Assembly: GCA_017512045.1 (NCBI GenBank)
Contig: JAFWHE010000003.1
Location: forward strand, 1 to 54,476
DNA: 54,476 bases
Direction of reading: 5' to 3'
From: Candidatus Saccharimonadota bacterium
Lineage (GTDB): Bacteria; Patescibacteriota; Saccharimonadia; Saccharimonadales; Saccharimonadaceae
Shown here: in pieces, positions 857 through 27,943 of the stretch
Position numbering within the stretch: position 1 is the stretch's first letter
Layout of the letters: each line of letters begins with the position of its first letter
The notes under the pieces: model-generated
The model's input: the letters and a program-made list of their open reading frames with translations, nothing else
Told to the model about the DNA's origin: nothing
The model's database searches: none
Position numbers and translations under genes: made by a program

Positions 857-1090
857 CTAAATCCTCGTCACACAACGCAGGGCGACCCCGTTGCGCTTAG
901 TATCGGTGGAAGCCTTAATCAGGCGTGAGCCATACATACCCAGGTTGTAACTATCGGTGCTACTAACTATAGTAGAGGACCAGTAGCGGCCACTCAACGT
1001 CTGGTCGTAAAGCCGACCAGTGTCCCAGTAGTAGTAGCCAGAATATACATACGACAATGGATAAGATCTTGCACCAAGGCTACCAGTGGA
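857..1090 (-). pseudogene. FISUMP-domain cassette C4, type A, 52-bp head class
   Basis: The minus strand encodes GSTGSLGARSYPLSYVYSG, a variable core (YYYWDTGRLYDQT, RYWSSTI) and the tail VALRCV. Positions 1037-1088 are identical over 52 bp to heads at 20827-20878 and 26798-26849. The head begins only a few bases after the pnp stop codon on the same strand, so the cassette would be transcribed by readthrough from pnp. It lies tail to tail with C3. No independent start is visible. Confidence 0.72.
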
Positions 1091-20128: not shown

Positions 20129-20160
20129 GAGGAGAGAAATTTTTGTCTTTTTTCTATCTG

Positions 20161-20169
20161 TGTTATAAT
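20161..20169 (+). promoter_or_regulatory. Extended -10 of the 209-aa membrane protein, leaderless type
   Basis: TGTTATAAT, six bases before the ATG at 20176. It rules out the in-frame upstream ATG at 20143. Confidence 0.75.
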
Positions 20170-20175
20170 AAGCAT

Positions 20176-20805
20176 ATGAATAATAAGGAATATCTGGAAA
20201 AAATCGCAAAAGATACCCGCACTAACAAAATGCAGCAGAAAAAGTTCCTTGGACTGAACCTTTCCCCGAATACTATTAAGCTGCTCATTGGTGGTGCAAT
20301 TTTGGTATTCGTGATAATGATTTTTGGCATGATTTTTAGTGGTGATGGCAACAAAGAACGCGATTACGTCGACAAGGTATACCTACGCGCAAGTAACCTT
20401 ATTAGCGAGACTGGAAATTATACGAAGCTAGTCAAATCTTCACAACTACGTTCTATGGGTAATTCCCTGGTTGCAATTCTGACAGAAACTCAATACGCAA
20501 TTGGTACATCATTGAAGGAAGATTTCGGTGCTAAATCCCTAGAAAAACCAAACAAAGAAAAAACTAAAACCGACGAAGATGCGGTAATGGTGGAATACCT
20601 AGAAACATTAGAGAATGGACGGCTAAATGGCATACTGGACCGTGTCTATACGCGTGAGGTAGCTTACCAAATTGGTATGCTGATTTCTGCCGAACAAGAT
20701 GCTTATACCCGTACCAAGAAAGATAACCTCCGCACTGCGCTAGAAAAATCTATGACGAATTTGGATACGCTGTATAACCAGTTCAATGAGTTTTCAGCGG
20801 AATAG
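20176..20805 (+). CDS. Single-pass membrane hypothetical protein
   Basis: This 209-aa protein is not recognised. A charged cytoplasmic N-terminus of about 35 residues is followed by one hydrophobic helix (LLIGGAILVFVIMIFGMIF) and a helical, charged outer domain of about 150 residues with no cysteine. The start follows from the leaderless promoter 6 nt upstream. It is divergent from dnaG and ends about 20 bp before a FISUMP cassette on the same strand. Orthologues could be widespread in the lineage, but I cannot name a family. Confidence 0.88.
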   Translation: MNNKEYLEKIAKDTRTNKMQQKKFLGLNLSPNTIKLLIGGAILVFVIMIFGMIFSGDGNKERDYVDKVYLRASNLISETGNYTKLVKSSQLRSMGNSLVAILTETQYAIGTSLKEDFGAKSLEKPNKEKTKTDEDAVMVEYLETLENGRLNGILDRVYTREVAYQIGMLISAEQDAYTRTKKDNLRTALEKSMTNLDTLYNQFNEFSAE

Positions 20806-20814
20806 CATATAGGA

Positions 20815-21054
20815 AGCCCCTGACTCCACTGGTAGCCTTGGTGCAAGATCTTATCCATTGTCGTATGTATATTCTGGCAGCTATTACTGGGTTACGGGTA
20901 GGCTTTACCACCAGACGGTGTATGGCGACTATTGGTCATCTAGTATAGTTAGTAGCGCCGATAGTTACAACCTGGATATGAATAATACGCGCTTGGTTAA
21001 GGCGAATAACAATAATAAGCGCCGCGGGCTCGCTCTGCGTTGCGTTTTTGTCTG
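20815..21054 (+). pseudogene. FISUMP-domain cassette C5, type A, 52-bp head class
   Basis: It encodes STGSLGARSYPLSYVYSG, a core (SYYWVTGRLYHQT, DYWSSSIV) and the tail ALRCVFV with a TGA. Positions 20827-20878 are identical to the heads of C4 and C9. Against C9 (26.8 kb) 20 of 58 core codons differ: 18 are replacements and two silent, and most replacements fit mutation of A in AAC/AAT-type codons. It starts just after the stop of the membrane-protein gene and runs into type B cassette C6. No start or ribosome binding site is visible. Confidence 0.75.
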
Positions 21055-21320
21055 AGCCAACCGATCCAGATGCTGGTACTAACCGTACTAATGCTGTGAG
21101 TAGGGATAATTTGATGAATGGAATGGGACTAAAATATGATGGGCATTACAGTGAAACTTCATTGAATAATATTGGCCTAGGTGTGGGTTTGTGGTCAATT
21201 AATACTCGTGACTATAGCACTGCATATAATTTAGTTTTTAGCAATACTGGTGATCATATATATCCTCAAAGTCGCAATAATAAATACTTTGGTTTCGGTG
21301 TGCGCTGTGTGTCAAATTCA
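21055..21320 (+). pseudogene. FISUMP-domain cassette C6, type B
   Basis: It encodes a head like PTDPDAGTNRTNAVSRDNLM, a type B core and the tail GFGVRCVS. The 33-bp block 21090-21122 is identical in C3 and C10. It is fused head to tail to C5 through a junction that recurs at 27.0 kb (CTGCGTTGCG, a few T-rich bases, then CCAACCGATCCAGATGCTGG). It converges with C7. Confidence 0.7.
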
Positions 21321-21327
21321 AATACTA

Positions 21328-21606
21328 ATCTTTATCACACAACGCAAATTATAGCCATTACGTTTATTGTTACTGTTTGCCACTTTTAGATATTTTTCAT
21401 AAATTTTTAGGGTATTTACACTGGTTCCATGAATAATGGTTGCTGACCAGTAGAAGCTGCCTTTATTTGTGGATTGATTATAGAGCATGCCTGTCTGCCA
21501 AGTCCCCATCCCACTGTATATATAAGATAGTGGATAGCTCCTGATACCACGATTCCCACTCTCATTATCCCCATACCCATAGGTAGTGAATAAATAGGAC
21601 CAGGAT
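21328..21606 (-). pseudogene. FISUMP-domain cassette C7, type A, 38-bp head class
   Basis: The minus strand encodes a head with YGYGDNESG, then RGIRSYPLSYIYSG, a diverged core (MGTWQTGMLYNQS, SFYWSATII) and the tail NLRCVIKISI. Positions 21556-21593 match C1 and C8 heads exactly. It lies downstream of mscL on the same strand beyond a terminator and meets C6 tail to tail. Confidence 0.7.
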
Positions 21607-22157: not shown

Positions 22158-22235
22158 AATACCTACATATTAACACATATTGCAGTATTTGTAAAGAAAA
22201 ACTTCCTCGTTATATATTATTTCTCAAATCATAAT

Positions 22236-22509
22236 CCTACTTATTCACTACCTATGGGTATGGGGATAATGAGAGTGGAAATCATGGTGTTAGGAGCTAC
22301 CCGTTATCATACGTTTTGCCAGGACTTTATTATTGGAGCAATGGTAGGTTTTTCTTTAGTACGAATGAAGGACGCTATTTATCATCCAGTACGCTAAATG
22401 CAGTTGATAACTATATCTTGTATATGAATTATAGCGGCACTCGGCTATTTCAAAGCGGCAATAACAAGCGTACCGGCAACCTTTTGCGTTGTGTGTCACA
22501 CAACGCAAA
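22236..22509 (+). pseudogene. FISUMP-domain cassette C8, type A, ending in a palindrome
   Basis: It encodes FTTYGYGDNESGNHGVRSYP, a strongly diverged core (GLYYWSNGRFFFST) and the tail LLRCVSHNAK. Positions 22241-22278 match C1 and C7 heads. The LRCV end is fused to an inverted copy of a cassette tail, making a 27-bp palindrome at 22483-22509 that ends about 20 bp from the groEL stop. So a second, opposite-strand cassette was probably removed except for its last bases. Confidence 0.7.
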
Positions 22510-26794: not shown

Positions 26795-27025
26795 ACTCAC
26801 TGGTAGCCTTGGTGCAAGATCTTATCCATTGTCGTATGTATATTCTGGCAACTATTACTGGGTTACGGGTAAGCTTTACCGCCAGACGGTGGGTGGCTTC
26901 TACTGGTCATCTAGTATAGTTGGTAACACCAATAGTTACGACCTGTATATGGGTAATACTCGCTTGATTAAGGCGGATAGCAATAATAAGCGCATCGGGA
27001 TCCCTCTGCGTTGCGTTTTTTGCCT
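26795..27025 (+). pseudogene. FISUMP-domain cassette C9, type A, 52-bp head class
   Basis: It encodes TGSLGARSYPLSYVYSG, a core (NYYWVTGKLYRQT, FYWSSSIV) and the tail PLRCVF. Positions 26798-26849 are identical to heads at 1037-1088 and 20827-20878. It is the closest relative of C5 and shows the clearest adenine-type codon variation. It directly follows murE on the same strand with no promoter or ribosome binding site of its own, and is fused to C10. Confidence 0.75.
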
Positions 27026-27291
27026 AATCCAACCGATCCAGATGCTGGCACTAATCGTACTAATGCTGTGAGTAGGGATAATTTGATGAATGGATTAGGG
27101 CTGAAATATAATGGACAATATATTAATAAGGATTTGGATTTTGTTGGTACAGATGGGTTCTGGTGGATGTCTGCTATTCGCAATAATACCTACTCATATA
27201 GCTCGCGTATAAATACAGATGGCTATATTTATCCTCAAGGCCAAAGCGTCCAAAACATGGGTCGAGCAGTGCGCTGTGTCTACAAAAATTA
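27026..27291 (+). pseudogene. FISUMP-domain cassette C10, type B
   Basis: It encodes NPTDPDAGTNRTNAVSRDN, a type B core (GFWWMSAIRNNT, YIYPQGQ) and the tail GRAVRCVYKN with a TAG. Positions 27062-27094 match C3 and C6. Together with C9 it repeats the A-then-B tandem seen at 20.8-21.3 kb. A terminator follows. Confidence 0.7.
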
Positions 27292-27315
27292 GCATCCTGT
27301 TTTTCTAAAACAGAT

Positions 27316-27349
27316 TCAAAAATCCCTCCCCCATCAAGGAGGGATTTTT
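27316..27349 (+). terminator. Terminator behind murE and cassettes C9-C10
   Basis: AAAAATCCCTCC and GGAGGGATTTTT form a long stem with an A-tract before and a T-tract after. It implies that the cassettes are transcribed with murE. A GCCGGC-rich inverted repeat follows at 27365-27381. Confidence 0.85.
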
Positions 27350-27553
27350 GCTGTAATATCTTTTGCCGGCTTTGCCGGCCGCAACTTTTCTACCACTTAG
27401 CAACCCAGCATTACGCTTATCGTTGCAATACAATAATATTTTTGATAGGATATTCTCAAACAAAAATGCTCTCAACGTACCTTGGATTTCTTGTTATATA
27501 TTTTGGAGTTGGGAGTATTTTTGGTAAATGTCAAAATAATCATTGGAGCAACT

Positions 27554-27943
27554 ATGGAGGAAAAACATTTTTGGGAGTGGATAGAACTGAAAGAAAGACT
27601 ACACTTTGTTGGAAACTACCCGCCGATAAAAGAAGGGCAAATTTGGTGGTGCGCTGTTGGTGAAAATATTGGTGCAGAAATAAATGGTAAAAACCACACA
27701 TTTTCTCGCCCGGTTCTAATTATGAAAAAATTAAGTCAATATAGTTTCATGGGTATTCCATTAACATCACAACCGCATGAGGGTAGCTGGTATGTTCATT
27801 TTAAATTCAAAGGCAAAATGCAATATGCTGCTTTAGCTCAAGCCAAAGCATTCAGTGTCTCCAGACTTTATACCAAAATGGGGACAGCGCCGAATTCTGA
27901 TTTGCAAATTGTTAGAGACGGATTTAGGAAATTGTATTGCTAA
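27554..27943 (+). CDS. PemK/MazF-like toxin
   Basis: The 129-aa protein has the PemK/MazF-type core: KEGQIWWCAVGENIGAEING, then FSRPVLIMKKLSQYSFMGIP and LTSQ, followed by a helical C-terminus. Characterised members are sequence-specific mRNA endonucleases. The start at 27554 has a TTGGAG site 6 nt upstream; earlier in-frame ATGs encode a hydrophobic stretch without a site. No antitoxin gene is adjacent, which is common for this subfamily in CPR genomes, so toxicity is not certain. Confidence 0.8.
   Translation: MEEKHFWEWIELKERLHFVGNYPPIKEGQIWWCAVGENIGAEINGKNHTFSRPVLIMKKLSQYSFMGIPLTSQPHEGSWYVHFKFKGKMQYAALAQAKAFSVSRLYTKMGTAPNSDLQIVRDGFRKLYC

Follow-up and report, generated by a model that had tools for sequence, protein, structure and literature searches.

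Antigenic variation in Neisseria (pilE/pilS) and Borrelia (vlsE) proceeds by gene conversion from silent cassettes. As in both of these, the system described here combines a large number of partial, silent cassettes that have constant flanks with a small number of complete genes of acceptor type, and an acceptor and one cassette share identical sequence. It differs from them in occupying 54 dispersed sites in both orientations, in having four interleaved families with separate acceptors, and in a putative retroelement signature in the cassette variation; the proteins concerned are also unrelated. Diversity-generating retroelements (DGRs), particularly those of Patescibacteria (clade 2 in Roux et al., 2021; PMC8144416), resemble it in placing the variable region at the C-terminus of a surface protein, in differences that fall largely at adenines and in a constant 3′ tail, and congeners of the present genome carry canonical DGR loci on the same domain. 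Unlike those DGRs, this genome has dozens of silent, non-genic copies of the variable region in dispersed intergenic sites, the copies bear the head of the expressed gene, the assembly yielded no reverse transcriptase, and some sequences point to an exchange with expressed genes that does not involve mutagenesis. In Nanoarchaeota, remote or fossil variable regions of DGRs have been described (PMC4372165), and there too DGR-type variation lies away from any reverse transcriptase; the copies described here, by contrast, are silent and fragmentary, are present in dozens and in places match acceptor genes exactly. DGRs and silent-cassette conversion, which are known separately as means of diversifying surface proteins, appear to be joined here, with hypermutated variants stored silently and shared with complete genes. 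The literature searched, which lay mostly outside subscription journals, contained no account of a joined system of this kind.

Silent cassettes in the window and in the genome

The window, i.e., the whole 54,476-nt stretch of DNA that was analyzed, is contig C16 of G000, a Saccharibacteria-like genome of 733 kb that is 97% complete. The assembly is fragmented into 30 contigs, many of which terminate within cassettes. Relatives retrieved via MurE were Saccharibacteria, chiefly from ruminant gut, and comparisons used one genome per species. An earlier note on this DNA had described 52-bp heads at positions 1037-1088 (minus strand), 20827-20878 (plus) and 26798-26849 (plus) as identical in spite of differing cores. 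Both observations held: the heads are 52/52 identical in all pairs, and the 167 bases behind them are 75, 77, and 86% identical. The 20 bases upstream of the three heads are unrelated (3-10/20 identical). The mapping of genome copies that the note had suggested gave 47 copies of the 52-mer with ≤3 mismatches in the 733 kb, 16 of them exact, and a reversed-pattern control gave 0 matches in G000, indicating a copy number far beyond chance. Heterozygosity was 0.03-0.08 in heads vs. 0.24-0.46 in cores.

The 52-bp heads open silent cassettes that code for the C-terminal portion of a surface domain of the Fib_succ_major-like (FISU) type. In each cassette, a variable core lies between a constant head and a constant tail. 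The reading frame is open over 70-90 codons in nearly all of them and interrupted by in-frame stops in a few, and neither a start codon nor an upstream domain is attached. Searches of G000 with translated cassettes as protein queries found 104 places of A type and 50 of B type. Once genes and weak matches had been removed, ~145 silent cassettes in 54 arrays were left, which occupy 33.2 kb, or ~4.5% of the genome. There are four head families, namely A1 (TGSLGARSYPLSYVYSG, the 52-mer), A2 (SWSYLFTTYGYGDNESG), B1 (NPTDPDAGTNRTNAVSRDNLMNG), and B2 (TNRTNATARDNLMTGASLGY), to which 45, 45, 22, and 26 members, respectively, were assigned by head motif, two acceptor genes included. Cassettes of the four families are intermingled in both orientations, ~0-30 bp apart, and arrays of 3-7 cassettes sit between housekeeping genes inside long contigs, the window included. 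A plain mobile element or integron-like cassette was set aside on the evidence of the flanks, in which no constant site was seen outside the cassette.

Behind murE, the A1 head at 26798-26849 (plus strand), a constant 5′ arm of 52 bp, directly follows the stop codon and opens a silent A1 cassette (26798-27017, plus) made up of head, variable core and the constant tail CTGCGTTGCGT, with no start codon and no upstream domain. It is followed by a silent B1 cassette with the head PTDPDAGTNRTNAVSRDNLMNG... (27026-27289, plus). The same 52-bp head at 20827-20878 belongs to a silent A1 cassette at 20827-21046 (plus), next to which lie a silent B1 cassette (21057-21314, plus), with a near-identical copy among other neighbors at G000:C24:11975-12226, and a silent A2 cassette (21336-21605, minus). 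Another silent A2 cassette, which contains an in-frame stop, occupies the mscL-groEL gap (22226-22495, plus). Near the start of the window, the head at 1037-1088 is part of a silent A1 cassette (869-1093, minus) that directly follows the pnp stop codon. Nearby lie a silent B1 cassette (587-844, plus), which has a near-identical copy among other neighbors at G000:C7:2-253, as well as a silent B2 cassette (349-576, minus), a silent A2 cassette (61-327, plus), and a B2 head piece that is cut by the contig end (1-55, minus) and consists of the same 55 bp as 518-572. The cassettes at array ends usually point head-outward toward the neighboring gene (by hand count, 30/38 left edges were in plus orientation), and outward heads at both ends give arrays the look of inverted repeats, for example at 61-1093 and 20813-21605.

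According to the earlier note, the heads always stand right after a stop codon. Within the window this is accurate, since each of the three heads follows a gene of the same direction (pnp, the gene at 20143-20805, and murE) and begins ~8-22 bp behind its stop codon, but the rule does not extend to the genome, where a co-directional stop stands no more than 40 bp before only 9/45 A1-family cassettes (hand count). Most A1-family cassettes are inside arrays beside other cassettes, and some face the 5′ ends of genes. Taking as genes the longest ORFs rather than called genes, with gene ends defined by these ORFs, we found that array edges facing gene 3′ ends (n = 43) had a median distance of 41 bp, with 21 within 40 bp, and those facing gene 5′ ends (n = 29) a median distance of 114 bp, with three within 40 bp. 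The distances to 3′ ends were thus shorter (Mann-Whitney p = 4.5e-5); the excess of 3′ over 5′ neighbors among the 72 edges (43:29) was not significant (p = 0.12). On the simplest reading, insertions immediately downstream of genes are tolerated and those in promoters are not. In one relative (L108), cassettes are also present in the groEL 3′ flank and the murE 3′ flank is empty; across 80 relatives, cassette-like matches at the murE locus occurred in four loci only. In another relative, an intact gene for a 750-aa protein with two FISU domains (L120:3724-5976) lies directly upstream of murE.

Core variation and the DGRs of congeners

The A1 family has 11 hypervariable codons, in which heterozygosity is 0.71 and 0.57 at positions 1 and 2, respectively, and 0.15 at the third base; outside these codons the third base is the most variable (0.23). 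Among polymorphic columns at positions 1 and 2, 41/43 contain A. A1 cassettes that are nearly identical outside the 30 adenine-type columns (1-3 differences in the other 129) disagree with one another at 9-23 of these 30, and those of the window at up to 22; the contrast is somewhat inflated because the adenine-type columns were picked partly for being variable. This pattern fits what recent adenine mutagenesis of AAY codons would produce. Confinement of variation to adenine-derived positions is strong, though not exclusive, in A1 and in the silent cassettes of two congeners (G070 and G061, below) and appears to have decayed in A2, B1, and B2. The variation of these three families looks older than that of A1, and the signal for a DGR as their ultimate origin, which we infer, is weaker because their third-position variation is ordinary. 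Pooled base-pair spectra by themselves were set aside as a measure of adenine bias, as they are nearly strand-symmetric and not decisive, hence the need for the codon-wise and backbone tests.

No reverse transcriptase was detected in G000 with either the PF00078 profile or a profile built from congener DGR enzymes. Because repeats break the assembly and the smallest contig seen is ~3 kb, a short contig with the gene may be missing, and we put its loss in this manner at roughly even odds. No all-adenine template was found among the G000 cassettes, and adenine at hypervariable columns never exceeded 0.64.

PF00078 matched in 87/147 congeners, and a reverse transcriptase is present in G070, G061, and G033. 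Congeners carry canonical DGRs, complete with reverse transcriptase and template, whose target is the same FISU domain type. In G033, G117, G070, and G078, target-template differences fell at template adenines in 19/20, 18/18, 29/30, 24/24, 23/24, and 21/21 cases, and two further target-template pairs were compatible with this (24/27 and 19/19). Silent arrays, recognized as many matches in short frames, were found in G070, G061, G138, and G120, the last with no clear template in the stretch examined; G033 and G117 have little beyond target and template. In G070, a close relative with arrays (MurE 73%), comparison of 27 silent cassettes with the local template yielded 577 differences at A and 179 at C, G, and T together, so that 76% were at A, with an A content of 29%. 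The 18 silent cassettes of G061 gave 331 differences at A and 113 elsewhere (75%; A content, 28%). This concentration of differences at adenines of the local template suggests that the silent cassettes of G070 and G061 were diversified by DGRs. In both genomes the cassette heads correspond to the part of the target gene that precedes its variable region, whereas the sequence preceding the template does not match them. The G061 cassettes end before a 46-nt stretch after the stop codon that is common to template and target. Taken together, the heads and the G061 cassette ends suggest that the cassettes are copies of the expressed gene rather than direct products of the template.

Acceptor-type genes and their matches to cassettes

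Judged by their sequence, the ~145 partial copies have their complete counterparts in acceptor-type genes on contigs C3, C25, and C30. Gene 1 (C3:12020-14362) encodes a 780-aa protein with a hydrophobic N-terminus and an ectodomain, and has A2 sequence at its 3′ end. Gene 2 (C25:130515-132287), which is cut by a contig end, has B2 sequence at its end. Gene 3 (C30:31875-33656) is a paralog of gene 1 that a contig end cuts before the variable end; our guess is that it is the A1 acceptor. No B1 acceptor was seen in the G000 assembly, and a related gene on C27, which is intact, has a sequence of its own and not that of a cassette. The variable region is C-terminal in genes 1 and 2. The Pfam family Fib_succ_major was recognized in the C27 gene and in a G117 target, and gene 1 gave no match to it. 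A PDB sequence search returned nothing significant, and an AlphaFold model of a relative's domain (pLDDT 38) was too poor for assignment of the C-type lectin fold that is usual in DGR targets. Behind the B1 cassette that follows murE, the window contains a terminator-like sequence and a PemK/MazF-like toxin gene (27314-27943), a similar counterpart of which is found behind gene 1 on G000:C3 (L183:5373-6334), as if the two sites shared a common 3′ neighborhood.

At its 3′ end, gene 1 agrees at ~99% with a single silent cassette over ~265-267 nt, vs. ~70-80% identity with other A2 cassettes. This cassette is split between the start of C9 (124/124 nt) and the end of C12 (98.8% of 171 nt), and outside the cassette both flanks are unrelated to gene 1; because it spans two contig ends that overlap by 29 nt, some room is left for an assembly error. 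The end of gene 2 equals the silent cassette at C26:12980-13125 over 145/146 nt. For both genes, then, the variable region of the acceptor is identical to segments of silent copies whose flanks differ. The variable sequence of gene 2 is common to three contig ends (C25, C22, and C26); how the gene continues is ambiguous, possibly into the dnaE region. A C25-C22 join that would complete gene 2 has a 69-nt overlap, yet the resulting frame ends atypically before dnaE, and C22 may instead continue the C26 cassette. Near-identical units that are limited to the cassette and lie between different neighbors indicate that non-mutagenic copying of such units happens. Identical tracts exceeded those in permuted columns for A2 (run of 56 vs. 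a permuted maximum of 51 in 300 permutations); the same test was not significant for A1 (p = 0.13), B1 (p = 0.09), or B2 (p = 0.31).

Probable origin and use of the cassettes

We consider it reasonably probable that the cassettes are silent copies of DGR-made variants that are exchanged with expressed genes by recombination. In the proposed scheme, a DGR would first rewrite adenine-derived positions of the variable region to give diversified cores, a step whose expected signature is visible in two congeners and in the A1 family of this genome. Head and core would then be copied from the expressed gene into intergenic sites to become silent cassettes. We infer this second step because the heads match the expressed gene and not the template, and because the cassettes of one congener stop before the shared post-stop region. 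Finally, cassettes and expressed genes would exchange sequence without mutagenesis, through homologous recombination via head and tail, as seen in the sequences of the 99% donor-acceptor pair and of the second, 145/146-nt match. The likely outcome is that the cell would keep a ready-made library of adhesin-like surface protein variants, in effect an archive, and switch among them. To judge from the lifestyle of the group, such switching would probably serve to match the bacteria that act as hosts or to evade attack. More tentatively, and with slightly more doubt than belief, we suggest that the genus keeps a genome-wide memory in which DGRs invent binding sites in an expressed surface gene, silent cassettes store them and recombination restores them, the library in this genome outliving a retroelement that has seemingly been lost.

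The earlier note had read the head as a recombination arm, and its identity beside divergent cores as a product of recent copying or active homogenization. A role as an arm is consistent with the presence of A2 and B2 heads inside acceptor genes and with the match between heads and the expressed gene in two relatives, and the contrast between head and core is real. Recent copying as its sole cause does not agree with cores that are mutated mainly at adenine-type positions. The head would be nearly invariant beside a divergent core because it lies upstream of the mutated zone, and since it is outside that zone and part of the acceptor gene (in A2, B2, and the relatives), it can serve as a 5′ homology arm. 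The constant tail (CTGCGTTGC or GTGCGCTG) can act as the 3′ homology arm.

Adenine-specific differences from the template in the G070 and G061 cassettes, together with GC-rich constant 3′ tails, would also be expected if the cassettes were direct, remote DGR targets that are rewritten in place by mutagenic retrohoming and have no traffic with the expressed gene; remote variable regions with no reverse transcriptase nearby have been reported in Nanoarchaeota (PMC4372165). We think this unlikely, however, as the cassette heads are present in the expressed gene and absent from the template, the G061 cassettes stop short of the post-stop stretch that template and target have in common, gene-cassette matches are exact and not mutated, and the G000 assembly has no reverse transcriptase. 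The last point would suit ordinary gene conversion from silent donors, of the pilS/pilE or vlsE kind, in which mutation and selection generate the variants and no retroelement is involved in the lineage. The acceptor-type genes, the exact donor match, the shared tracts, and the ordinary third-position variation of A2, B1, and B2 agree with that explanation too. It is nonetheless quite unlikely in our view, since near-identical A1 backbones are saturated with differences at adenine-type columns and in two congeners the homologous cassettes are copies of a local template mutated at adenines.

That the cassettes are decaying debris with no function, i.e., pieces of variable surface genes that recombination or a mobile element since lost has scattered, appears very improbable. 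They are partial copies with no gene structure, a few have in-frame stops, and they are gained or lost between species, as the empty murE 3′ flank of L108 illustrates; against this, nearly all frames are open over 70-90 codons, heads and tails are constant, and near-identical, cassette-limited units recur between different neighbors. An artifact of assembly or binning, in which the versions of a single hypervariable gene from many strains were mistaken for separate copies, could be suspected from the 30 contigs and the many that end inside cassettes. We give it almost no credence, because long contigs contain internal arrays of 3-7 cassettes flanked by housekeeping genes, as in the window, and the same organization occurs in several other species, two of which have their own template.

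If silent storage of DGR-made variants with exchange by recombination is the correct reading, an ultra-small epibiont with a 0.7-Mb genome would gain a reusable repertoire of binding variants, and a testable explanation would be at hand for how Saccharibacteria track changing hosts. Scans that assume one template and one target per DGR would miss most of the variable copies. A further congener, G055, has ~40 domain matches, mostly in long frames (~500-700 codons) with few short ones, and is possibly an example of another solution to surface diversity.
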